From positions 1-34,847 of the forward strand of contig JALCBG010000016.1 of NCBI GenBank assembly GCA_028066695.1: DNA of 34,847 bases, read 5' to 3'. Origin of the DNA: Gammaproteobacteria bacterium. GTDB lineage: Bacteria; Pseudomonadota; Gammaproteobacteria; Arenicellales; Poriferihabitantaceae. Shown here one piece after another: positions 1-24,700 of the stretch. A program made the translations under genes and the position numbers. The notes below the pieces were generated by a model. The model saw only the letters and a list, made by a program, of their open reading frames with translations. It had not been told where the DNA came from and made no database searches. Each line of letters starts with the position of its first letter. Position 1 is the first letter of the stretch.

Positions 1-1468
1 CTTCCGGCCGCATGTGCGGGAACAGCAGCACATCGCGAATGGACGGGCTGTCGGTGAACAGCATGATCAGGCGGTCAATGCCGATGCCTTCGCCGGCGGC
101 CGGGGGCATGCCGTATTCCAGCGCGCGAATGTAGTCGGCGTCAAAATGCATCGCGTCCTTGTCGCCGCCGGTCGCGGCTTTTTGCTGCGCGCGAAAACGC
201 TCGGCTTGGTCGTCCGGGTCGTTGAGTTCGGAAAAGCCGTTGGCGATTTCGCGGCCGGCGATGAAGAGTTCAAAGCGGTCGCTGACTTCGGGGTTGTCGT
301 CGTTGCGGCGCGACAGCGGCGAGACTTCCACCGGGTATTCGGTGATGAAGGTCGGGTTTTGGAGTTTTTCCTCCACGGTTTTTTCAAAGATTTCCAGTTG
401 CAGTTTGCCGGCGCCGTCTTCGGGCTTGACTTCAACGCCGAGGTTTGCCGCGTATTTTGCGAGGAAGTTTTTGTCGGCGAGTTTTGCATCGTCCAATTCG
501 GCGTGCTCGCGCAACAGCGACTCGCGCAAAGTGATGCGTGCGAAAGGCGGGGCGAGGTCTATGCGTTTTTTCTGGTAGGTGAATTCGGGCGCGCCGTGCA
601 GTTCGGCGCAAAGTCCGCGCAGCATTTCTTCGCTCATGTCCATGAAGTCGCGGTAGTCGGCATACGCTTGGTAGAACTCCAGCATCGTGAATTCCGGGTT
701 GTGGCGCGTGCTGACGCCTTCGTTGCGGAAGATGCGGCCGAGTTCAAACACGCGCTCAAAACCGCCGACCACCAGCCGCTTCAAATACAACTCCGGCGCG
801 ATGCGCAGAAAAAGCTGCATGTCCAGCGCGTTGTGGTGGGTGATGAACGGGCGCGCCACCGCGCCGCCGGGAATCGGGTGCATCATCGGCGTTTCCACCT
901 CCAAAAAATTTCGCGCGCGCATGAAACCGCGCAAATACTCCACCGTTTTTGCGCGCATCACAAAAACCGCGCGCGCGTCTTCGCTCATTATCAGATCCAG
1001 ATAACGGCGGCGGTATTTCAATTCGGCGTCGCTGAGGCCGTGGGATTTCTCCGGCAGCGGACGCAGCGACTTGGTCAGCAAGCGCAATGCATCGGCGCGC
1101 ACGCTGAGTTCGCCGCTTTTGGTGTGGAACAATTCGCCCTCGGCGGCGAGAATGTCGCCGATGTCGTATTGCTTAAATTCGCCGTCATAAACGCCGGACG
1201 GCAGCGCGTCCCGCTGCAAAAAAAGTTGAATGCGCCCGCTCGCGTCGCGAATGTCGGCGAACGCGGCCTTGCCCATGACGCGCCGCGACATCATGCGCCC
1301 GGCGACTTTCACGCGGATTTTTTTGTCCGCGAGAAGTTCGGGATGCTCGCCGTATTTTTCGCGCAACTCGGCCGCGAACGCGCCGCGCCGAAAGTCATTC
1401 GGAAACGCGCCGCCTTTTTTTCGCAGCGACTCAAGTTTGCCGCGCCGCTGCCGTTCTTCGTCGCTCAT
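1..1468 (-). CDS. lysS: Lysyl-tRNA synthetase, class II (3' end cut by window edge)
   Basis: Charges tRNA-Lys with lysine in the cytoplasm. About 489 codons are present. The reading frame runs off the left edge at FPHMRPE, which in this family is only a few residues from the C-terminus (E. coli LysRS has 505). An N-terminal OB-fold anticodon-binding region comes first ([25 protein letters not shown]). The class II catalytic domain follows, with motif 2 ([18 protein letters not shown]) and motif 3 ([13 protein letters not shown]). The N-terminal domain shows this is LysS and not the short EF-P-modifying paralogue EpmA. The ATG lies 9 bases after the prfB stop, with an AGGGG Shine-Dalgarno-like stretch in the end of prfB. 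This suggests cotranscription and translational coupling, as for prfB-lysS in E. coli. Confidence 0.96.
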
Positions 1469-1477
1469 GCCGCGCCC

Positions 1478-2576
1478 CTACAAACCGGCCTTCAAACTCG
1501 CTTCAATAAACGGGCCGAGCGCGCCGTCCAGCACCGCCTGCGTGTTGCCGCTTTCCACGCCGGTGCGCAGGTCCTTGATGCGCGACTGGTCCAGGACATA
1601 CGAGCGGATCTGGCTGCCCCAGCCGATGCTCGCTTTGTTTTCCTCCTCGCTTTGCTGCTGTTCGCGGCGTTTTTGCATCTCGGCCTGAAACAGGCGCGAC
1701 TTCAGCATGGCCATCGCCTCGGCGCGGTTGCGGTGCTGCGAGCGGTCGTTCTGGCACTGCACCACGATTCCCGACGGCGCGTGCGTGATGCGCACCGCCG
1801 AGTCGGTGCGGTTGACATGCTGGCCGCCGGCGCCGCTGGCGCGGTAGGTATCCACGCGCAAATCGGCCGGGTTGATTTCCACATCAAAAGTCTCGTCAAT
1901 TTCCGGATAGACATACACCGAGGCGAACGAAGTGTGGCGGCGGTTGCCGGAGTCAAACGGGCTCTTTCGCACCAGGCGGTGCACGCCGGTCTCGGTGCGC
2001 AGGTAGCCGTAGGCGAATTCGCCGATCATTTTCAGCGTGGCGCTTTTTACGCCGGCGACATCGCCGTCGGATTTTTCCACCAGTTCGGTTTTGTAGTTCT
2101 GCTCGTCTCCCCAGCGCAAATACATGCGCAGCAGCATCTCGGCCCAGTCCTGCGCCTCGGTGCCGCCGGAGCCGGCCTGAATGTCCACGAAGGCGTTGTT
2201 GCCGTCGGCCTCGCCGGAAAACATCCGCGAAAACTCCATCTTGTCCAGCGCGGCCGCGGTCTTGGCGGCGTCGGCGGAAACGGCGGCGAGCGCGGCCGCG
2301 TCGTCTTCGGCGCGCGCCAATTCCAATAACTCGGAAGTGTCGTCAATGCCGCGCTGCAATTCGTCGAGCGATTCCACCGCGCGCTGCAGCCGCGCGCGCT
2401 CGCGGCCGAGCGCCTGCGCTTCGGACGGCGTGTCCCAGATGCCGGCGTCCTCCAGTTTTCCGGTTACCTGCGCGAGGCGCTCTTTTTTGCCGGCATAGTC
2501 AAAGCAACCTCCTGAGCGCGGCAAGCCGCTCGGTGGATGCGCGCAGCGATTCGGAAAGTTCGTTCGGCGTTTCCAT
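1478..2576 (-). CDS. prfB: Peptide chain release factor 2, expressed by programmed +1 frameshift
   Basis: RF2 recognises UGA and UAA stop codons and triggers peptidyl-tRNA hydrolysis. The gene is in two frames. ATG at 2576 opens 25 codons ending CTT, followed by an in-frame TGA (2501-2499). The ribosome must slip +1 to continue as GAC-TAT-GCC and so on (D-Y-A-G-K-K-E-R-L). Skipping one base gives 365 residues, the same as E. coli RF2. The stop-codon-recognition tripeptide SPF and the catalytic GGQ (residues 250-252, within SGAGGQHVN) are both present. An upstream -10-like TATAAT sits between dsbB and this gene. lysS follows after 9 bases. A reading that extends further upstream in the downstream frame runs through dsbB and is not real. 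Confidence 0.97.
2498..2513 (-). promoter_or_regulatory. prfB autoregulatory +1 frameshift site
   Basis: Read on the minus strand, an internal Shine-Dalgarno AGGAGG (2513-2508) is followed by TTG, then the slippery CTT (2504-2502), then TGA (2501-2499) and C. This has the same architecture and spacing as the E. coli site (AGG GGG TAT CTT TGA C), and the stop is also codon 26. When RF2 is scarce, termination at UGA is slow and +1 slippage yields full-length RF2. The internal anti-SD pairing stimulates the shift. Confidence 0.96.
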
Positions 2577-2602
2577 GTTCGTGTTCGGCGGGGCGGCGCG
2601 GG

Positions 2603-2608
2603 ATTATA
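2603..2608 (-). promoter_or_regulatory. Candidate -10 element for prfB-lysS
   Basis: A perfect TATAAT lies on the minus strand in the 43-base gap between the dsbB stop and the prfB ATG, 27 bases before the ATG. No good -35 hexamer is visible 16-18 bases upstream, so this is a tentative promoter. prfB may instead be read through from dsbB. Confidence 0.35.
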
Positions 2609-2619
2609 GCGCAGCGCCG

Positions 2620-3186
2620 CTACTTCGCGCGGCAGGCGGCGAAAAGCGCGCCCGCGGTGAGCAGCACAAGCCACACCAGACTCCACGCCGGCATGCTCAG
2701 CCCGATCAGTTTCCACTGCACTTCGGCGCATTCCCCCGAGCCGCGCAGCACCAGCGAGAGCGCGCGCTGCAGCGGGAACGCGTCCAGCAAATAGCCGAGC
2801 CCGGGTCCGCATTCCGGCACGCGCTCGGGCGGCAGACTCTGCAGCCACACATGCCGCGCGGCCACGGCCGCGCCGAGCGCCGCGGCGACGGCGGCGCATC
2901 CGGCGTAGATCCGCCGCCCGAGTCGGCGCGGGTTGTGCGCGGCCGCGGCGAGCAAAATCACCGCGACGGCGATGAAGGCGACGCGCTGAAAAATGCAAAG
3001 CGGGCACGGCTCCAATCCGTCCACATGCTGAAAATACAGCGCGATGGCGACCAGCGCGACGCAAAGCAGCGCGCCGCCGAGCGGCAATGCGCGCGGCGGC
3101 AGCGCGGAGACGGCGGCGATGGCTCCTTGAATTTTCATGGGAATTTTCATGGAAATTTTCGCGGAGATTTTGGCGGGCGGATTCAT
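2620..3186 (-). CDS. dsbB: Disulfide bond formation protein DsbB
   Basis: An inner-membrane quinone reductase that reoxidises the periplasmic thiol oxidase DsbA. Four hydrophobic segments are readable. The first periplasmic loop carries C61-P-L-C64. The second carries C126 (PEC) and C153 (GEC), matching the two catalytic cysteine pairs of DsbB. The conserved QR after the CxxC segment is also present (FQR). From the first ATG the protein has 188 residues, slightly long for the family. The extra N-terminus is a 12-base tandem repeat encoding A/M-K-I-S/P units, and ATGs at 3150 and 3138 are alternative starts. The one at 3138 gives a typical length of 172. No start has a clear Shine-Dalgarno. 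It lies between the DUF1820 gene and prfB on the same strand. Confidence 0.93.
3127..3174 (-). repeat. 12-bp imperfect tandem repeat, four units, in the dsbB 5' end
   Basis: On the minus strand the units are GCCAAAATCTCC, GCGAAAATTTCC, ATGAAAATTCCC and ATGAAAATTCAA. They encode [12 protein letters not shown] and MKIQ. The last two units each supply a potential ATG start. The unit length keeps the frame, so copy number change would only lengthen or shorten the N-terminus. Confidence 0.8.
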
Positions 3187-3195
3187 GGTTCGCGC

Positions 3196-3201
3196 ATTAT
3201 A
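3196..3201 (-). promoter_or_regulatory. Candidate -10 element upstream of dsbB
   Basis: The minus strand reads TATAAT 10 bases upstream of the first dsbB ATG. The sequence is locally palindromic (ATTATAAT), so the plus strand also reads TATAAT. Transcription from it would start almost at the first ATG, which would favour one of the downstream starts. No convincing -35 is visible. Confidence 0.25.
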
Positions 3202-3213
3202 ATGGGCGCGGCG

Positions 3214-3561
3214 TTATTCCCCTTTCATCGGGCCCAGCGGAAACGCCGCGACATTTCCGGCCGGCGCCGGCGCGCCGCCGCTTTCAATGATTTTATTCAC
3301 GCCTTCTTTTTCCACCTCGTCAATGCGCACCACCGCATGCAGCGGAATGTAAGTGCGGCTGACCTGGCTGAACTCGGCTTTGAGCCGCTCCTCGGACGGG
3401 TCCACCACCATCTTGGAGCGCTCGCCGAAAATGATGCCGGCGACTTCCACGAACGCGTACAACCCGCTCTGCGAAACTTCGCGCGCATACAATTCATACA
3501 ATTTCCCCCGGTTGTGGAACTGGATTTTATAGACGCGCTTTTGGGTTTTTCGCTTTGTCAT
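3214..3561 (-). CDS. DUF1820 family protein
   Basis: A small cytoplasmic protein of 115 residues, with no known biochemical function. It is recognised by the conserved core YKIQFHNRGKLYELYAR, then SGLYAFVEV, FGERSKMVVDPSEERLK and the RTYIPLHAVVRIDEVEKEG block, which is the DUF1820 family pattern common in Gammaproteobacteria. Start choice: the frame is open 21 codons further upstream to 3624, but the family begins near the ATG at 3561 (MTKRK). The longer form would also overlap the divergent dacB start. The C-terminal tail is rich in Ala, Pro and Gly and looks unstructured. It is followed by dsbB 27 bases later. Confidence 0.85.
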   Translation of the reverse strand: MTKRKTQKRVYKIQFHNRGKLYELYAREVSQSGLYAFVEVAGIIFGERSKMVVDPSEERLKAEFSQVSRTYIPLHAVVRIDEVEKEGVNKIIESGGAPAPAGNVAAFPLGPMKGE

Positions 3562-3593
3562 CGGGGCGTTGCGGGCGGTTTGGCCGGGCGGGG

Positions 3594-3599
3594 AGTATA
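3594..3599 (-). promoter_or_regulatory. Candidate -10 element for the DUF1820 gene
   Basis: TATACT on the minus strand, 32 bases upstream of the ATG at 3561, in the divergent gap shared with dacB. No consensus -35 is found at 16-18 bases, so confidence is low. Confidence 0.3.
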
Positions 3600-3618
3600 G
3601 CCGATTGGCGTATTTGAT

Positions 3619-5160
3619 ATGCACATATTAATGAACACATTAATCAGCCGCTTTCTCCGGCCGCTTGCGACCGCAATAATTTTGGCGGCGGCAACGACCA
3701 CGGGCGCGCATGCCGATTTGCCCGCGCCGATTGCGGCCGCGCTCGCCGAGCAGCGCATTCCGGCGTCCAAGGTGAGTTTGGTGGTGCGCGCGCTGGACGA
3801 CCGCGGGCGCGGCGCGGCCTTGCTGCGCCACAACGCGGCGACCGCGCGCAATCCGGCCTCGGTGATCAAACTCCTGACCACGCTGGCCGCGCTGGAAACG
3901 CTGGGGCCCGACTACCGCTGGGAGACCGACTACCTCGCCGACGGCGCGATCCGAAACGGAACTTTGCACGGCGATTTAATTTTGCGCGGCGGCGGCGACC
4001 CGTTCATCACCGTGGAGGATTTTCTCGGCCATTTATTGGCGCTGCGCCAGACCGGCCTGCGCCGCATCAACGGCGACCTGGTCATTGACAACTCGCGCTT
4101 TGCGCCGGCGCATCACGACCCGGCCGCCTTTGACCGCCAGCCGACGCGCTCCTACAACACCGCGCCCGACGCCGCGCTGATCAACCTGTCGGCGACGCGT
4201 TTCGTGGTGGAGCCGCGCGGCGGGCGCATCACCGCGCGCGCCGAGCCGCCGCTCGCCGGGCTGCGCATTGACAACCGCATCAAAGCGCTCGGCGGAACAT
4301 GCAAAGGCAAGGGCGGCAACTGGAGTTACCGCATCGCGCGCGACGACAGCGCGCGCGGCGCCGACCGCCGGCAAAGCGGCGCGCGCATTTCGCTGCGCCC
4401 GATTCGCGTCCGCCTGCAGGGCGCCTACCGCGCGCAATGCGGCGAAGACGAACTCATTCGCAGCATCGTGCCGAACGCCGAATACACCTGCCGCCTGTTC
4501 ACCTCGCTGTGGCGCGAGATGGGCGGCAAATCCGGCGGCTGCCGCCTCGGCGCCGCGCCGCCGCGCGCGCGCCGGTTGCTGGCGCGCGAAGGCGCGCCGC
4601 TCGCCGACATCATCACCGGCATCAACAAGTTCAGCAACAATGTAATGACGCGCCAATTGCTGCTGACCCTCGCCGCGCCGCGCGTTGACGCGGACGGCGA
4701 CGGCGAGCCGGACACCGCGCAACCCGCATCGCGCCCGGCAACCGCCGCCGCCGGCGTCGCCGCGATTCGCGCCTGGCTTGCCAAGTCCGGCGTCGCCATG
4801 CCGTCGCTGGTCATGGACAACGGCGCCGGCCTGTCGCGCACAAGCCGCGCCTCCGCGGCCGGCCTGTCGCGCCTGCTCGCGCATGCCTGGCGCGGCAGTT
4901 ACCGCCCCGAATTCCTCTCCTCGCTCCCCCTCGCCGCCACCGACGGCACCATGCGCAAGCGCCTTTCCGAAAGCGCGTTGCGCGGCCGCGCGCGCATCAA
5001 GACCGGCTTAATCGACAACATCCGCAGCATGGCCGGCTATGTCCACGCCCGCGACGGCCGCCACTACGCGGTCGCAATGATGATTGACTCGCGCCGCGTA
5101 AATTTCTGGAGCGGCAACGCGGTGCAGGACGCGGTGCTGGAGTGGGTGTTTGCGCGGTGA
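3619..5160 (+). CDS. dacB: D-alanyl-D-alanine carboxypeptidase/endopeptidase, PBP4 family
   Basis: A periplasmic serine enzyme of peptidase family S13 that trims D-Ala from peptidoglycan stem peptides or cleaves cross-links. It has 513 residues. An N-terminal signal peptide (hydrophobic stretch around residues 16-27, Ala-rich cleavage region near AHA) is followed by the three active-site motifs: S81-V-I-K84 (SxxK), S339-N-N (SxN) and K461-T-G (KTG). The large insert between the first two motifs is typical of PBP4. A second ATG at residue 5 is an alternative start. It is transcribed divergently from the DUF1820 gene and converges with the alpha/beta hydrolase, leaving only three bases between the two stop codons. 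No terminator is visible there. Confidence 0.93.
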   Translation: MHILMNTLISRFLRPLATAIILAAATTTGAHADLPAPIAAALAEQRIPASKVSLVVRALDDRGRGAALLRHNAATARNPASVIKLLTTLAALETLGPDYRWETDYLADGAIRNGTLHGDLILRGGGDPFITVEDFLGHLLALRQTGLRRINGDLVIDNSRFAPAHHDPAAFDRQPTRSYNTAPDAALINLSATRFVVEPRGGRITARAEPPLAGLRIDNRIKALGGTCKGKGGNWSYRIARDDSARGADRRQSGARISLRPIRVRLQGAYRAQCGEDELIRSIVPNAEYTCRLFTSLWREMGGKSGGCRLGAAPPRARRLLAREGAPLADIITGINKFSNNVMTRQLLLTLAAPRVDADGDGEPDTAQPASRPATAAAGVAAIRAWLAKSGVAMPSLVMDNGAGLSRTSRASAAGLSRLLAHAWRGSYRPEFLSSLPLAATDGTMRKRLSESALRGRARIKTGLIDNIRSMAGYVHARDGRHYAVAMMIDSRRVNFWSGNAVQDAVLEWVFAR

Positions 5161-5163
5161 GGT

Positions 5164-5925
5164 TCAGGCGCCGGGGCGGACAAAATCCAGCACCAATTTG
5201 TTGAAGGTTTTTTCGTCCTCAAGATGCGCGTTGTGCGCGCAGCCCTTCATAAAATGCAGTTGCGCGCCGGGAATTGCGCGGCGCATTTCCCGCAGGCGGC
5301 GCGGGGCGTAAGTCCGGTCGCGGCACGCGCCGATGACCAGCGTCGGCATGCTGATTTCGGCGAGCCGTTCAGTCAGGTTGAAATTTTCCATCGCGCGCAG
5401 CGCGGCCAGCGCGGCCGGCATGCCGACCCGGTCGCTGCATGCCAGGCAGTCGGCATAGCGCGGATGCGCGGCGCCGTCCACAAACCAAGTCGCGACAATT
5501 TCCTTTCGCGCGGATTCCATGCCGCGCGCCTGCAGCCGCGTTTTGCTCTCGGCGAAAGTCTCAAAGCGCTCGGGCAAATTTCCGTCGCTGTTGGTCGCGA
5601 AGAGAATTAATTTTCGCGCGCGCGCGGGCGCGTCCAGCGCGATTTGCAGCGCGACCATGCCGCCCATGGAATGGCCGAGCAAATCAAAGCGTTCGCAGCC
5701 GAGCGCGTCCAGCGCGCCGAGCGTCCGCGCCGCCATCTCGGAAACGGAGCCGGCGGCGCGCGCCGCAAAACTTTCGCCGAAGCCGGGCAGGTCTATGGTA
5801 ATGACATCGGCAAATTCGGAAATGACACGGATGTTTGGCGCAAAAAATTTTCCGCAGCACAAAAAGCCGTGGATCATCACCAGCGGAACGCCGCCGCGGC
5901 CGGAGTATTTCGCGTGCGCCAGCAT
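5164..5925 (-). CDS. Alpha/beta-fold hydrolase of the proXVW-type transporter operon
   Basis: A cytoplasmic alpha/beta hydrolase of 253 residues with no signal peptide. It has the oxyanion-hole region VMIHGFLCC, nucleophile elbow G-H-S86-M-G, likely acid D203 (GACRDRTY) and catalytic His in GCAHNAH (H231 or H234). This gives a complete triad. Substrate is not readable from sequence; the family includes esterases, C-C hydrolases and haloperoxidase-like enzymes. It is the last gene of the run proX-proV-proW-hydrolase, 12 bases after the proW stop. One possibility is that it acts on an imported ester such as a choline or carnitine ester. That is inference from position only. Confidence 0.85.
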   Translation of the reverse strand: MLAHAKYSGRGGVPLVMIHGFLCCGKFFAPNIRVISEFADVITIDLPGFGESFAARAAGSVSEMAARTLGALDALGCERFDLLGHSMGGMVALQIALDAPARARKLILFATNSDGNLPERFETFAESKTRLQARGMESARKEIVATWFVDGAAHPRYADCLACSDRVGMPAALAALRAMENFNLTERLAEISMPTLVIGACRDRTYAPRRLREMRRAIPGAQLHFMKGCAHNAHLEDEKTFNKLVLDFVRPGA

Positions 5926-5937
5926 GACGCGGCGCGC

Positions 5938-7455
5938 TCAGCGGTTTCCGCCCTGAATGATGCGGTTCAAAATCATCGCGCAAAAAAGAATGGCGAAGCC
6001 GGCGAGAATTCCCTGGCCGACATTGGCGTATTGCAGCGCCTCCAGCACGTCCTCGCCGAGCCCCTTTGCGCCGATTAGCGACGCGACCACCACCATCGCC
6101 AGACTGAGCATGATGGTTTGGTTGATACCGGCGAAAATGGACGGCGCGGCCAGCGGCAGATCCACCTTGGTCAGCAAATACCACTTGGACGCGCCGAAAG
6201 CGATCGCCGCCTCGCGCACCGGCTGCGGCACGCCGCGCAGGCCGAGCACGGTCAGGCGCACCACCGGAGTGCCGCCGAAGATCATGGTGATGATGATCGC
6301 GGCCGGCTTGCCCACGCTGAAAAGCGCGATGACCGGAATCATGAAGACAAACGACGGCATGGTCTGCATGAAATCCATGACCGGGCGGATGACGCCGTAG
6401 AGGCGCTCGCGCTTGGCGCAGAGCACGCCGAGCGGAATGCCGATGGTGATGCTGATGCAGGCCGCCGTGCCGAGCAGGGCGAGCGTGGTCATCGCTTTTT
6501 CCCAGAACTCCAGCGCGCCCATGAAGGCGAGCGAGCCGGCGGCGAACACCGCGCCGCGCGCGCCGGCGGTGAGCCCGGTCAGCAGGATGATGAAACTGGC
6601 GACTATCGGCCACGGCGTCCGCACAAACAGCACTTCCAGATAATCCAGAAAAACGCGGATGCCGTAGGAGATGAAATAAAACAGGCCGGAGCCGGCGCCG
6701 GTCAGCCAGGAAAAAAACTCCACGATCCAGTTAATCGCGGCCAGCCGGTAGCGCGGGTCGGTCGGAAAGTTTCCGAGGTGCCCGGTCGGGTCGTTGAAGC
6801 CGTAAAACAAAATGCCGATGCAGTAGACGAACACGACGAAAACGCCGCTGAGCGCGATCCGCGCCGGCGCCAGCCCGCTTTTTAAACTGCGGTCGGAAAG
6901 CCATTCGGAAAAGCGCTTTTCCAGGATTCGGTTCGCCAGCAGTCCCTGCGCGCATTTCACCGCGAGCAGGGCGCCCAGGCCGGCCGCGGCCACCCACACC
7001 GCCGACTCCTCCACCGCGCGCATCTCCAGCCGGATGTTGGCGATCTCGCGCTCCAGCGAGTCGATCCAGCCGCGAATCGCGCCGACTTTGTCGCTGTTGT
7101 CCTCCAGCGCGGCCTGCAGTTGGCGGCGCCGCAAATCCAGCGTGCCTTCTATCGCGCCGATGCGCGCGCGCGCCTCGCCGGACAGATCGCCGAACAAGCC
7201 GCGCATGATTTGCGTGAGCGCGAAAGTCTCGGCGACCACGAACAGCATCCCCCACTTCCACAGGCCGCGCAGCCCGAACCACACCGGGCCGAGCGCGGCG
7301 GCGGCCGCGTTGAAACTGAAAACGAAGGCGGTGGTCGCGCCGATTTTGTTGAACTCGCGCAGGTAGTAGCGCGGGCTGGAGGCGACGAATCGCTTCAGCA
7401 ATTCGGCGCGGTCTTCGGACGGCGCCGTATTTTTGGGAGATTGCTGTTGGCTCAT
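5938..7455 (-). CDS. proW: Glycine betaine/choline-type ABC transporter permease with long N-terminal extension
   Basis: Inner-membrane permease of an osmoprotectant (quaternary amine) ABC importer. The C-terminal part, about residues 240-505, is the BPD-type permease. It has multiple membrane segments and the coupling-loop region around GLRGVPQPVREAAIAFGASK that contacts the ATPase, then GLGEDVLEAL. Residues 1 to about 235 are an extension not present in short ProW/OpuAB proteins. It holds hydrophobic segments near 40-80 and 150-175, with a charged heptad-rich stretch between (about 93-150: EARARIGAIEGTLDLRR, then SLEREIANIRLEMRAVE) that looks like a coiled coil. It overlaps the proV stop by four bases (ATGA), so the two subunits are translationally coupled. 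Confidence 0.9.
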   Translation of the reverse strand: MSQQQSPKNTAPSEDRAELLKRFVASSPRYYLREFNKIGATTAFVFSFNAAAAALGPVWFGLRGLWKWGMLFVVAETFALTQIMRGLFGDLSGEARARIGAIEGTLDLRRRQLQAALEDNSDKVGAIRGWIDSLEREIANIRLEMRAVEESAVWVAAAGLGALLAVKCAQGLLANRILEKRFSEWLSDRSLKSGLAPARIALSGVFVVFVYCIGILFYGFNDPTGHLGNFPTDPRYRLAAINWIVEFFSWLTGAGSGLFYFISYGIRVFLDYLEVLFVRTPWPIVASFIILLTGLTAGARGAVFAAGSLAFMGALEFWEKAMTTLALLGTAACISITIGIPLGVLCAKRERLYGVIRPVMDFMQTMPSFVFMIPVIALFSVGKPAAIIITMIFGGTPVVRLTVLGLRGVPQPVREAAIAFGASKWYLLTKVDLPLAAPSIFAGINQTIMLSLAMVVVASLIGAKGLGEDVLEALQYANVGQGILAGFAILFCAMILNRIIQGGNR

Positions 7456-20524: not shown

Positions 20525-21172
20525 TCAGTCGTTGTCGTGCAGCCCGGCGCCGGCGCCGGCCAGCCGCGAGGCCTCGCTCGCTTCCACATAAGTGCGCCGC
20601 GCATGGCGGTCCAAGCGCAGCCACACCGCGCGCGGCACCCTGCATTCGCCGAAGCGCGCCGCGCGGCGGCGCAGGCCCGCGGAGGTTCCCGGCGCGCGCG
20701 CCACACTGCATTTCAAATGCGCGGCGCGCGCGGCCTCAAACGCGGCGCGCGTTCCGCCGCGGCGCGCGCCGCCGCGCATGCATTGCAGCCGCGCGCCGGG
20801 CCACTGCAGTTCAATGACCAGTTCGTCAATGTGCGCGGCGTCTCCGAGGAAGCCGGCCGCGAGCAGCGGGTGCGCGATCGCGCCGGTTTCCACCGCGCCG
20901 GCCGATTCAATGCAGTCGCCGAGCGCGGCGCCGGTGCGCAGCGGATCCAGCGCGCCGCGCGGCGCGCGCCATACGCCGCCGAGCGAGCGCGGCGCGCCGC
21001 TGCTCTTAATGTCGCCGTCCAGCCAATCGGCCAATGCGGCCGCGCCGCGAAACCCGTTGGCATGCAGCCAGCGCACCGCGCGCCCGGTTTCATCGGCCAG
21101 CCCCCAGGCAAACCCGGCGCCGCGCGCGGCCTTGCGCGCGCTTTGCTCGATTTGATTGAGCGAGCAGATCAT
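20525..21172 (-). CDS. DUF3726 domain protein
   Basis: A 215-residue protein of unknown function. The N-terminal block SLNQIEQSARKAARGAGFAWGLADETGRAVRWL is split over residues 4-36 and matches my memory of the DUF3726 family. The rest is Ala/Arg/Gly-rich, with several cysteines (GDCIES, LQCMRG, LKCSVA, GECRVP) and no membrane segment. The ATG overlaps the stop of the 563-residue gene by four bases, so the two are made as a pair. It converges with efp. I do not assign a reaction. The conserved ARGAG/WGLA block near the N-terminus suggests a short helical binding domain. Confidence 0.65.
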   Translation of the reverse strand: MICSLNQIEQSARKAARGAGFAWGLADETGRAVRWLHANGFRGAAALADWLDGDIKSSGAPRSLGGVWRAPRGALDPLRTGAALGDCIESAGAVETGAIAHPLLAAGFLGDAAHIDELVIELQWPGARLQCMRGGARRGGTRAAFEAARAAHLKCSVARAPGTSAGLRRRAARFGECRVPRAVWLRLDRHARRTYVEASEASRLAGAGAGLHDND

Positions 21173-22860
21173 TCGCCATTTTCGCCGAGCGGCGGATAGG
21201 CCCAGTCGTCGGCGTCCATCGCCGAGAGTTCGTCGGGAAACGGCGCGTGCTGGTACATGGTGATGCGCACCCAGCGGTCGGATTTCGGGTCAAACCGCGT
21301 CGCGCCGAAGAACGACAACTTGCAGCGCAGCAAATCCACCGGGCGCAATTCTTTTGCGATGACATTGTCGCGAATCTCGGCGTAGGGGAGTTGCGCCGCC
21401 AGCTGCGCGCGGCGCACCGCGTGGCGGTGGCGCGGATGCGCGCGCAAAAATTCGGCGAGCGCTGCGTCCGCGTCAAACGCGCCGAGGCTTGCGCGCAGCG
21501 CGGCGATGTCGCGCGCCGCCGCGAGCGGCAATTCCTTTTCCGCGCCCGGCTCGTCAAAACGCTCGCCGAGGCGCGGCTCCAGTTTTTCCTCGGACACATA
21601 CCAAAAGCGCGCGCATCGCCGCGGCTCGGCGTAGTCGGCGCCGAGCGCCCAGCGGTAATTCGCGTCTATCGCGTCGCGCAATTCGCCGACGCGCCGGCCG
21701 GCGCGAATGCGCCAGTAACGCGATTCATCCACCGACATCTCATGCGCCAAGTCGTCCACCAATTCGCCGTGCGGCTCCAGCGCGAGCGACACCAGCAATT
21801 CCTGCCCCTCCATGGAAAGCGCGCGCCGCGACCAGCGAATCAACGCGTCCCACGGCGCCTCGCCCTGCAGCGCGCCGCCGCGGGTTTGCGCGGAGATTTT
21901 TTCCAGGTCGTTTTTTAATTCGCGCAGCCGCCCGAGTTGGCGGCGGTCTTCGGTGCGCCACTGCGAAAGGCCGGCGCGCATTCGCGCCAGCGCCCGGCAA
22001 AAATGCGCGCGCGTTTTTTTGCCGCTGCGCGAAATTCCGCGCACGCGCGAAAGCGCGGTTTCGCGCGCGCGCATCCAGCAATGCAGCAGCGCCGGATGCA
22101 GCAGCAAAAAAGGCGCCATGCCGAGGCCGGTAGCGTTGCCGATGCCGAGTTGCCGCGCCAGCGGGCGCGCCAGTTTCACCGCCTTGCGGCCGCCGGCGGC
22201 GCGCGCCAAATGCTCGGCGAGGTCAATGCTGAACCAGCGAATCAGCCAGACCGCGAGCATCTCGGCGCGAAACGGCGCGGCGAACATTTGGTCGTGACCG
22301 GCGCGCCCGGCAAAATTTTCGCGGTCGCACAGGCCGAACTTGCCGTTGGCATAGACCGCGGTGGTGCGCATCAGGTAGCCGCTCGCGTCCAGCAATTCGC
22401 GCGGCGGCTGCGCGCCGCGCGCGAGCGCGTCCACCACGCGCGAAAAAACGCGCACGCTGCGGTTCGCGCGCGACATCACCAATTCGCTTTGGCGGCATTG
22501 CCCGGCTTCCTGCAGCGGAACATTGGCGGCGAGGCGTTTGATGTCGGCCTCGTCCGGCGCGCCGTCAAACAGCGCGAAAGTCGCGTCCCAGGCGTTTGCG
22601 ATGACGCGGTCGGAGCGAAGTTTCGCCGGCAAATCGCGCGAGAAACACACCAGCGTGTAGGTGCGGCGCGGGCCGCGCGCCGAATACAGCGCGACTCCCT
22701 CGCCGCGCGCGTCCACCCGCCACGACTCGCGCGCAAACTTCCACCGCTCGCGCTTTAAGTCGCGCAACAGCGCGCGCATAAAACTCAGCCGCGTTTGGTG
22801 AAAGCAGCCCATGCGCGCCAGTCGCATCACCTGGCTCGGCGGACGCAGTGGAATTTGCAT
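21169..22860 (-). CDS. Uncharacterised conserved 563-residue protein, partner of DUF3726
   Basis: I do not recognise a named domain. It begins with a strongly patterned stretch, PPSQVMRLARMGCFHQTRLSFMR, read over residues 7-29. The middle (about 205-285) is rich in Trp, His and hydrophobic residues (MLAVWLIRWFSIDLAEHLAR, GMAPFLLLHPALLHCWMRAR), probably amphipathic or membrane-associated helices. The C-terminal part has aromatic and charged motifs (RFWYVSEEKLEPRLGERFDEPG, LRPVDLLRCKLSFFGATRFDPKSDRWVRI). No signal peptide is visible. The ATG is 24 bases beyond the end of rnpB on the same strand, so transcription could read through from the rnpB promoter. It is followed with a four-base overlap by the DUF3726 gene. 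Confidence 0.8.
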   Translation of the reverse strand: MQIPLRPPSQVMRLARMGCFHQTRLSFMRALLRDLKRERWKFARESWRVDARGEGVALYSARGPRRTYTLVCFSRDLPAKLRSDRVIANAWDATFALFDGAPDEADIKRLAANVPLQEAGQCRQSELVMSRANRSVRVFSRVVDALARGAQPPRELLDASGYLMRTTAVYANGKFGLCDRENFAGRAGHDQMFAAPFRAEMLAVWLIRWFSIDLAEHLARAAGGRKAVKLARPLARQLGIGNATGLGMAPFLLLHPALLHCWMRARETALSRVRGISRSGKKTRAHFCRALARMRAGLSQWRTEDRRQLGRLRELKNDLEKISAQTRGGALQGEAPWDALIRWSRRALSMEGQELLVSLALEPHGELVDDLAHEMSVDESRYWRIRAGRRVGELRDAIDANYRWALGADYAEPRRCARFWYVSEEKLEPRLGERFDEPGAEKELPLAAARDIAALRASLGAFDADAALAEFLRAHPRHRHAVRRAQLAAQLPYAEIRDNVIAKELRPVDLLRCKLSFFGATRFDPKSDRWVRITMYQHAPFPDELSAMDADDWAYPPLGENGE

Positions 22861-22884
22861 GGGCGGTTGCCGGAAGAAAAAAAA

Positions 22885-23224
22885 GTGGGAGCCGGCCGAT
22901 AAGCCGGGTTCTGTCGAGAACAGTCATTCATCTGGGACACCCGTCGCCGGGATGCCTCTAGCGACCTACCCGGGTCCGGCGTGGGCGCGCCATCGGACCC
23001 CTATTCGGTCTTGCTCCAGGCGGGGTTTGCCCTGCCGCCGCCGTTGCCGGCTGCGCGGTGCGCTCTTACCGCACCATTTCACCCTTACCCCCGAAGGGGC
23101 GGTGTATTTTCTGTGGCACTTTCCGTCGGCTCGCGCCGCCCGGGAATTACCCGGCGCCTTCGCCCAGTGGAGCCCGGACTTTCCTCCCCGCGCGAACGCG
23201 GAGCGACTGCCTGACCGACTCCCG
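22885..23224 (-). ncRNA. rnpB: RNase P RNA, class A
   Basis: Catalytic RNA that matures the 5' ends of tRNAs. Read on the minus strand, the conserved core is complete: GGAGGAAAGTCCGGGCTCC near the 5' end, AAGGGTGAAA, GAGCAAGACCGAATAGGGG, CCCGGGTAGG and ACAGAACCCGGCTTATCG near the 3' end. Helix P1 closes the molecule with nine pairs (GGGAGTCGG at 23223-23215 with CCGGCTCCC at 22895-22887, one G-T pair). Length is about 340 nt. Eight T residues follow directly (22884-22877), so P1/3'-end structure plus the T run probably terminates transcription. A good promoter lies just upstream (23231-23259). Confidence 0.97.
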
Positions 23225-23329: not shown

Positions 23330-24700
23330 TCAGGAGCGCAATTGCAGCGCAGGCCGCGCGCGCGCCAATTCGGCCGCCAATTCCAGCGCGGCGCGCATGC
23401 TGGACGGATCGGCGGCGGCGCCCTCCTTTTGCGTTTTGCCGGCCAATTCGGCCGCGGTGCCGTGGTCCACCGAAGTGCGAATGATCGGCAGGCCCAATGT
23501 GATGTTGACCGCGCCGCCGAACGCGGCGTGCTTTACCACCGGCAGCGCCTGATCGTGATACATCGCCAGCACCGCGTCCAGCCCGGCGAGGCGGGCGCGG
23601 GTGAAGGCGGTGTCGGCAGGCAGCGGTCCCTTTATGTCAAAACCGCGCGCGCGAAGTTTTTGCAGCGCGGGCGCGATGATTTTGATTTCCTCGTCGCCGA
23701 GGCAGCCGTCTTCGCCGGCATGCGGATTTAATCCGCACACGCCGAGCACCGGCGACTCTATGCCGAACATGCCGCGCAAATCTTTGATGATCACTTCGGC
23801 GGCGCGTTCAATGCGCGCCGCGGTCACATGGCGGCGCACTTCGCGAAGCGGCAAATGCGCGGTCAGCAGGCAAACGCGCATGCCGCCGCCGGCGAGCATC
23901 ATCACCGGCGCGCGCGCGCCGCAGCGCGCGGCGATGCGCTCGGTGTGGCCGGTGAACGCAATGCCGGCGCGGTTGATGACCGCTTTGTTAACGGGCCCGG
24001 TGGTCATCGCGTCAAATTCGCCGGCGAGGCACATGTCGGTTGCGCGGTCCATGCACGCCACCGCATGCGCGGCCGCGGATTCGCGCAATTTGCCGGGGGT
24101 AACGCGCGCGCCGCAGCGCATGTGCAGTACGCGAAATTCCCGCGGTCCGCCGTCTTTTTCACTTTCGTTTTCTTTTTTGTAATCTGAAAATTCCGCGCGT
24201 ATGCCGAGCAGTTTGGCGCGCGCGGCGAGCACATTGCGGTCGCCGAGCAAAACAATGCGCGCGCGCTTCGCCATTTCCGGCGCGGCGCGCAGCGCGATGT
24301 CGGGCCCGATGCCGGCCGGGTCGCCGCAACAAACGATGATGCGCGGCGCGCCGCCGCCTCCCTCGCCGTGCGGCGGCGCGAACTCCTCCGCGCCCCAGCC
24401 AAAACGCGCGAAATCAACGCGCCCGTTGCGGTCGAACACCACGCCTTCGCGCAACAGTTTGTCGCGCTGCCGCGACTCGCCGCCGTTGCTTTCTTTGCGC
24501 GCGCTGATTTCGCCTTTGCTGTTGATCACGCGGTGCCAGGGAATGCGCGCGCCCGGCGGCGCCGCGGCCATCGCATACCCGACCTGGCGCGCGCCGCAGC
24601 CGGCCATGCGCGCGATGCGGCCGTAACTGGCGACGCGCCCGCGCGGAATGCGCATGACGATTTCGTAAATGCCGCGGTAGGTGGTTTTTTCCGGGGTCAT
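23330..24700 (-). CDS. pdxA: Fusion: alkyltransferase-like (ATL) domain + 4-hydroxythreonine-4-phosphate dehydrogenase (PdxA)
   Basis: Residues 1-102 form an MGMT-family alkyltransferase-like domain: helix-turn-helix around YGRIARMAGCGARQVGYAM and active-site loop P-W55-H-R-V, with Trp where true alkyltransferases have Cys. ATL proteins bind O6-alkylguanine and recruit nucleotide excision repair. After a Gly-rich linker (GEGGGGAP), residues 119-456 form a complete PdxA, an NAD enzyme of vitamin B6 synthesis. It shows GDPAGIGPD, TTGPVNKAVIN, the metal-binding His of GHTE, AHLPLR and MYHDQ, and NPHAGEDG. No ATG, GTG or TTG lies in frame near the junction; the closest are GTG codons 87-88. Separate translation of PdxA from a normal start is therefore unlikely. 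The ATG overlaps the glmS stop by four bases. Confidence 0.88.
   Translation of the reverse strand: MTPEKTTYRGIYEIVMRIPRGRVASYGRIARMAGCGARQVGYAMAAAPPGARIPWHRVINSKGEISARKESNGGESRQRDKLLREGVVFDRNGRVDFARFGWGAEEFAPPHGEGGGGAPRIIVCCGDPAGIGPDIALRAAPEMAKRARIVLLGDRNVLAARAKLLGIRAEFSDYKKENESEKDGGPREFRVLHMRCGARVTPGKLRESAAAHAVACMDRATDMCLAGEFDAMTTGPVNKAVINRAGIAFTGHTERIAARCGARAPVMMLAGGGMRVCLLTAHLPLREVRRHVTAARIERAAEVIIKDLRGMFGIESPVLGVCGLNPHAGEDGCLGDEEIKIIAPALQKLRARGFDIKGPLPADTAFTRARLAGLDAVLAMYHDQALPVVKHAAFGGAVNITLGLPIIRTSVDHGTAAELAGKTQKEGAAADPSSMRAALELAAELARARPALQLRS

Follow-up and report, generated by a model that had tools for sequence, protein, structure and literature searches.

A conserved gene pair encoding a large protein and a DUF3726 partner is linked to betaine-type catabolism, with homarine as its candidate substrate

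The window, meaning the whole stretch of 34,847 nucleotides of gammaproteobacterial DNA analysed here, contains two ORFs that lie on its minus strand directly behind rnpB, from which the larger ORF is separated by a gap of 23 nt (Table 1). Four bases, ATGA, are common to the end of the large gene and to the start of the DUF3726 gene. An earlier note, made from the letters of the sequence alone, had described both this overlap and the location behind rnpB; the positions of the two coupled ORFs were borne out, and the RF00010 match places rnpB upstream of them on the same strand. A scan for promoters and terminators gave no sites above the level of shuffled sequence. On the far side of rnpB, a further ORF of the window joins in frame an alkyltransferase-like DNA-binding domain and PdxA, and carries PWHR at the position of the acceptor Cys of O6-methylguanine methyltransferases.

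Table 1. Positions of the gene pair and of the other features discussed in the text.
Feature	Sequence	Position	Strand	Remarks
Large protein gene	window	22860..21169	-	563 aa, ATG start; no known domain; ORF call
DUF3726 protein gene	window	21172..20525	-	215 aa, ATG start; PF12525; ORF call
rnpB (RNase P RNA, class A)	window	22884..23222	-	RF00010, E = 1e-99, 306.8 bits
Alkyltransferase-like/PdxA fusion ORF	window	23330-24700	-	456 aa; PF01035 and PF04166
chrB-a cis-regulatory RNA match	L044	8651-8723	+	RF03078, just over threshold
Distant module, S. meliloti pSymB	L147	11944-22744		
Distant module, Neorhizobium	L150	9198-17640		
McrC gene	L154 (own genome, contig 25)	8731-9990	-	PF10117
Glutamate-synthase-type and oxidase subunit genes	L169 (own genome, contig 17, G000:C17)	25-6595	+	

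Relatives of the large protein were found in 37 of the 60 genomes, its own genome included, mostly at 45-71% identity and near full length, and the genome collection holds 364 of them. Their alignment has 127 near-invariant columns, at only one of which the protein of the window deviates. Judged by this sequence conservation, both ORFs are real genes that are conserved across Proteobacteria.

The large protein gave no significant match in Pfam or NCBIfam, in agreement with the absence of a recognisable domain in the first description, nor did its comparison with PADLOC and with the sequences of the PDB return anything significant. The conserved motifs that had been proposed for it held in part: in an alignment of 55 sequences R16 and G18 of the PPSQVMRLARMG motif are invariant, and the central Trp residues W262, W301 and W337 are conserved, as is H255, among others, but the central helices had been overstated as 'His-rich'. 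The AlphaFold model of the protein (pLDDT = 86.7, pTM = 0.90) has no match in the PDB at E ≤ 0.001 according to Foldseek; the best E-value was 1.0, and the matches listed, with probabilities of at most 0.08, were treated as noise. Accordingly, the structural similarity to a known enzyme family that the earlier note had named as evidence against its proposal was not found in the PDB for the predicted model. No flavin, iron-sulphur, metal or oxygenase site or motif was recognised in either protein of the pair.

The first ~50 residues of the small protein match PF12525 well above the gathering cut-off (51.2 bits against 22.1, E = 1.2e-13), so the DUF3726-like N-terminus read from its translation is confirmed. 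PF12525 was the only family retrieved from Pfam, the cut-off of PF02615 not being reached. Its model, to which no function is attached, spans only about 73 N-terminal positions and does not reach a tail, SRxxGAGAGxxDND, that is conserved at the C-terminus (alignment of 36 sequences).

Several comparisons nonetheless point from DUF3726 to PF02615, the Ldh_2 family of type 2 malate/lactate dehydrogenase and piperideine-2-carboxylate reductase. For a protein in which the large and the small part are naturally fused (L073; predicted model with pLDDT = 84.9 and pTM = 0.81), the top eleven Foldseek matches were all Ldh_2 structures, among them the piperideine-2-carboxylate reductase 1WTJ, with probabilities of 0.84-0.99 but E-values of 0.1-0.6. 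The output gives no aligned range for these matches; since the large part alone does not match Ldh_2, they most likely stem from the DUF3726 part. An hhalign comparison of DUF3726 with Ldh_2 gave E = 0.0012 at a probability of 19% over the N-terminal 55 columns, and the small protein found beside the S. meliloti large protein reached E = 0.025 against PF02615, which is below the cut-off, and E = 0.019 with hhalign. The two families differ in length (about 335 residues in Ldh_2 against about 215 in DUF3726) and in the SHG motif, which is present in the Ldh_2 protein of the operon described below and absent from the DUF3726 alignment. Taken together, these similarities lend modest support to DUF3726 being a probable shortened Ldh_2-like subunit.

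The two genes are almost always found together. In 88 of the 91 loci examined, the large gene has DUF3726 as its neighbour, the exceptions being one locus at a contig edge and two distant relatives, in S. meliloti and Neorhizobium, where another small gene takes its place. In about ten loci (L073, L077, L081, L086, L088, L089, L096, L099, L113 and L121) the pair is fused into a single protein of about 760-800 residues, and none of the 60 genomes has DUF3726 without the large gene. This agrees with the joint travel of the two genes expected from the window, and the separate distribution across genomes that had been named as counter-evidence was not observed. The fusions and the near-constant adjacency favour a complex of the two proteins, whose stoichiometry may be fixed.

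The adjacency to rnpB does not extend as far. It is highly improbable that the pair is tied to rnpB or to RNA processing and is read through from the rnpB transcript: rnpB lies close upstream in the window and precedes the pair in nine of the ten family loci scanned, but the spacing varies, exceeding 3 kb in one relative, rnpB is missing from the locus of one scanned relative (L046), and the neighbours outside the family are catabolic genes. We therefore rejected a functional tie, given the varying spacing and the confinement of this neighbour to part of the window's own family; from the loci compared, the adjacency is a lineage-specific position. A role in anti-phage defence was likewise rejected, because neither protein has a PADLOC match at E 0.1 and the context of the operon is catabolic.

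This operon is a departure from the earlier note, which had taken the two genes for a self-contained system: in most lineages they are part of a larger catabolic operon. On annotated plasmids of Ruegeria TM1040, Phaeobacter, Sulfitobacter, Aliiroseovarius, Alisedimentitalea and Mesorhizobium, it comprises genes for a LysR regulator, an aldehyde dehydrogenase (ALDH), an M19 'dipeptidase', often a BCCT transporter, the large protein, DUF3726 and, mostly, an Ldh_2 enzyme. In Aminobacter and Roseateles, a ProXVW-type betaine ABC transporter replaces BCCT. Neither a Rieske demethylase nor a proline dehydrogenase was present in the operon core on the annotated plasmids, and the best scores of the ALDH were those with 2,5-dioxovalerate dehydrogenases, though below their cut-offs.

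The same arrangement recurs in most of 80 unannotated loci. When the count was restricted to loci where 4 kb or more flank the pair on each side, the M19 gene was present in 46 of 60, ALDH in 37 and the BCCT gene in 25; the adjacent Ldh_2 gene is absent or divergent in many loci, and several have no M19 gene close by (e.g. L051-L053, L057, L061 and L062). Other members of the window's own family also have M19 and ALDH genes near the pair (G005, G013 and G018). At the level of whole genomes, 34 of the 60 related genomes have the M19 gene, and all 34 have the large gene, which occurs without M19 in the window's own genome, in one 72%-complete genome and in one genome with a fragment only (Fisher p = 1e-13, calculated as though the genomes were independent of each other, which is not the case). 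The gene pair is real and widespread, and its link to betaine-type catabolism is consistent. In one locus (L044), a match to a chrB-a cis-regulatory RNA lies about 0.2 kb downstream of the DUF3726 gene.

A distant version of the module, found on pSymB of S. meliloti and in Neorhizobium, consists of genes for IclR, the large protein (28-32% identical), another small protein, M19, an ABC transporter and RidA. In S. meliloti it adjoins genes for an aminotransferase and a succinate-semialdehyde dehydrogenase, and a GABA transaminase gene lies nearby in the Neorhizobium relative.

In TM1040, Phaeobacter, Aliiroseovarius and Roseateles, the operon is adjoined by an oxidase of four subunits that carries the annotation of a sarcosine oxidase. 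We placed its alpha subunits among references chosen by their own neighbours, namely alpha subunits beside gmaS-/mgs-type genes for N-methylglutamate (Aminobacter and two Rhizobium) and alpha subunits beside glyA and/or serine-deaminase genes for sarcosine (Mesorhizobium, Azoarcus and Paraburkholderia). The operon-adjacent subunits clustered with the N-methylglutamate dehydrogenase (Mgd) type (support 100/99), both in Rhodobacterales and, separately, in Roseateles, and the sarcosine-oxidase alpha subunits formed a clade of their own (support 100/100). The homarine catabolic pathway offers a parallel to this adjacency, as Mgd takes part in it according to PMC13390433, which cites a 2026 paper (Ferrer-Gonzalez et al., Nature Microbiology 11:1531).

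We lean towards the view that the two proteins are the subunits of an enzyme that attacks the pyridine ring of an N-methylated betaine, for which homarine (N-methylpicolinate) is the most likely candidate; the betaine-type transporters of the operon (BCCT and ProXVW) were counted in its favour. What the comparisons show is the operon, the co-occurrence of its genes, the fusions, the Mgd type of the neighbouring oxidase and the lack of a PDB fold match for the large protein; the substrate, the order of the steps and the chemistry of the pair are what we infer. Several observations count against the proposal: no oxygenase, flavin or metal site was recognised in the two proteins, the adjacent Ldh_2 gene is absent or divergent in many loci, several loci have no M19 gene nearby, and the genome of the window, with neither M19 nor a close ALDH detected, need not run the full route. 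The proposed scheme follows from a carbon balance, in which the seven carbons of homarine equal the five of glutamate plus one from the N-methyl and one from a formyl group. The large protein, as the proposed ring-opening subunit, would together with DUF3726 dearomatise the ring and open it beside the nitrogen, so that ring carbon 6 remains as an N-formyl group, which the M19 metallo-hydrolase would then release as formate. The Ldh_2 enzyme, whose Pfam family also contains piperideine-2-carboxylate and N-methyl-amino-acid reductases, would reduce the C=N bond or the 2-oxo group, the 2,5-dioxovalerate-type aldehyde dehydrogenase would yield N-methylglutamate, and Mgd would finally convert this to glutamate and a C1 unit.

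The transporters are, for all that, generic betaine types, M19 dipeptidase genes also accompany genes of dimethylglycine catabolism (PMC12093977), and the different gene set of S. meliloti indicates that substrates differ within the family. The operon might then degrade some other N-methylated betaine, such as trigonelline or a proline- or carnitine-type betaine, on which the pair would act, with Mgd only clearing the N-methylated product. We consider this unlikely, given that two separate lineages have an adjacent oxidase of the N-methylglutamate type, that PMC13390433 ties Mgd to homarine, and that the operon core is without the Rieske demethylase and proline dehydrogenase.

A broader version of the homarine proposal is decidedly more tentative. 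In it, the large protein would found a new fold family of pyridinium ring openers, working with a shortened Ldh_2 subunit and with M19 as N-formyl hydrolase, and a single module would serve different rings, one with a 2-carboxylate leading to N-methylglutamate and the S. meliloti version leading to a GABA-like product. The aminotransferase and succinate-semialdehyde dehydrogenase of S. meliloti would fit the same chemistry on a ring lacking the 2-carboxylate, which would give GABA.

The genome of the window itself departs from this picture. Its assembly, which is 92% complete, yielded no candidates for the M19 gene, and no closely related ALDH at E ≤ 1e-140, a threshold that leaves out weaker ALDH homologues. 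In three congeners, the M19 gene has an MFS gene beside it and lies close to either LpoA-DiaA-BON genes or an rfaE2-like gene. The DiaA-BON-rfaE2 flank is present in the window's genome and is followed, at the contig end, by a gene for McrC (without a match in PADLOC), which occupies the site of the M19 and MFS genes of the congeners; the MFS neighbour has only a 34% match in this genome. With no detectable M19 or close ALDH, the pathway in this genome is probably incomplete, rewired or decaying.

The pair could therefore be a remnant here, cut off from its pathway by the loss of M19 and heading for decay, which the missing M19 gene and the McrC gene at its expected site would suggest. A congener, G003 (L145), has a large gene disrupted by a frameshift around codon 278 and by internal stops, possibly through assembly error, which would also agree with such decay; its DUF3726 gene beside the broken one and its M19 gene elsewhere both persist. 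Against this stands the pair itself, which is intact and, by its substitution pattern, under purifying selection: dN/dS relative to a congener is 0.27 for the large gene, equal to that of the neighbouring udg, and 0.41 for DUF3726, in comparison to 0.18-0.27 for efp, uvrC and udg. The single changed column among the conserved ones argues in the same direction, and, at 92% completeness, the M19 gene could be absent from the assembly or relocated. The genome also has, on contig 17, a glutamate-synthase-type (mgs-type) gene with a DAO-type beta and a sarcosine-oxidase-like, Mgd-like alpha subunit. The latter sits on a long branch and falls outside the Mgd reference clade, and the genes are likely a cluster for N-methylglutamate synthase/dehydrogenase in which the alpha subunit has diverged to an unusual degree. 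We thus regard a remnant as a serious possibility, if the weaker one. The genes not found in this genome, its intact pair, the broken gene of G003 and the cluster on contig 17 together give the impression of a pathway in flux within the genus; other enzymes may have taken over as partners of the pair, or the pair may itself be disappearing.

Marine phytoplankton and invertebrates contain homarine as an abundant solute. Should the pair prove to open the homarine ring, a family without Pfam model or PDB fold match would gain a testable activity, DUF3726 could be assigned a fold, and a likely role would emerge for hundreds of hypothetical genes of marine and rhizobial bacteria. The genome of the window would provide a natural case in which the pair persists without a detected counterpart of its usual hydrolase partner, and could help to separate the role of the pair from that of the pathway. 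The points of interest are the chemistry of the enzyme, the fold that has no match and the link between DUF3726 and Ldh_2.

The literature that we searched gave no mention of DUF3726 and no gene list for the homarine pathway. Ferrer-Gonzalez and colleagues are reported to have described, in 2026, a LysR-regulated operon of five structural genes leading to N-methylglutamate, reportedly named homABCDER, so that the function of the pair at the level of the pathway may already have been published in that year. In contrast to the homarine pathway, the pair of the window is not accompanied by the remaining genes of the operon, and the search of its genome found neither M19 nor a close ALDH. The degradation of trigonelline in Acinetobacter by the tgn genes provides the other comparison: an N-methylpyridinium carboxylate is opened to an N-methylformamide-type intermediate, which is then hydrolysed, and an aldehyde is oxidised. 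That route begins with an oxygenase and a reductase, whereas no such genes are present in the operon core described here. It resembles the route proposed for the pair in the opening of the ring, the N-formyl-type intermediate, its hydrolysis and the oxidation of an aldehyde.
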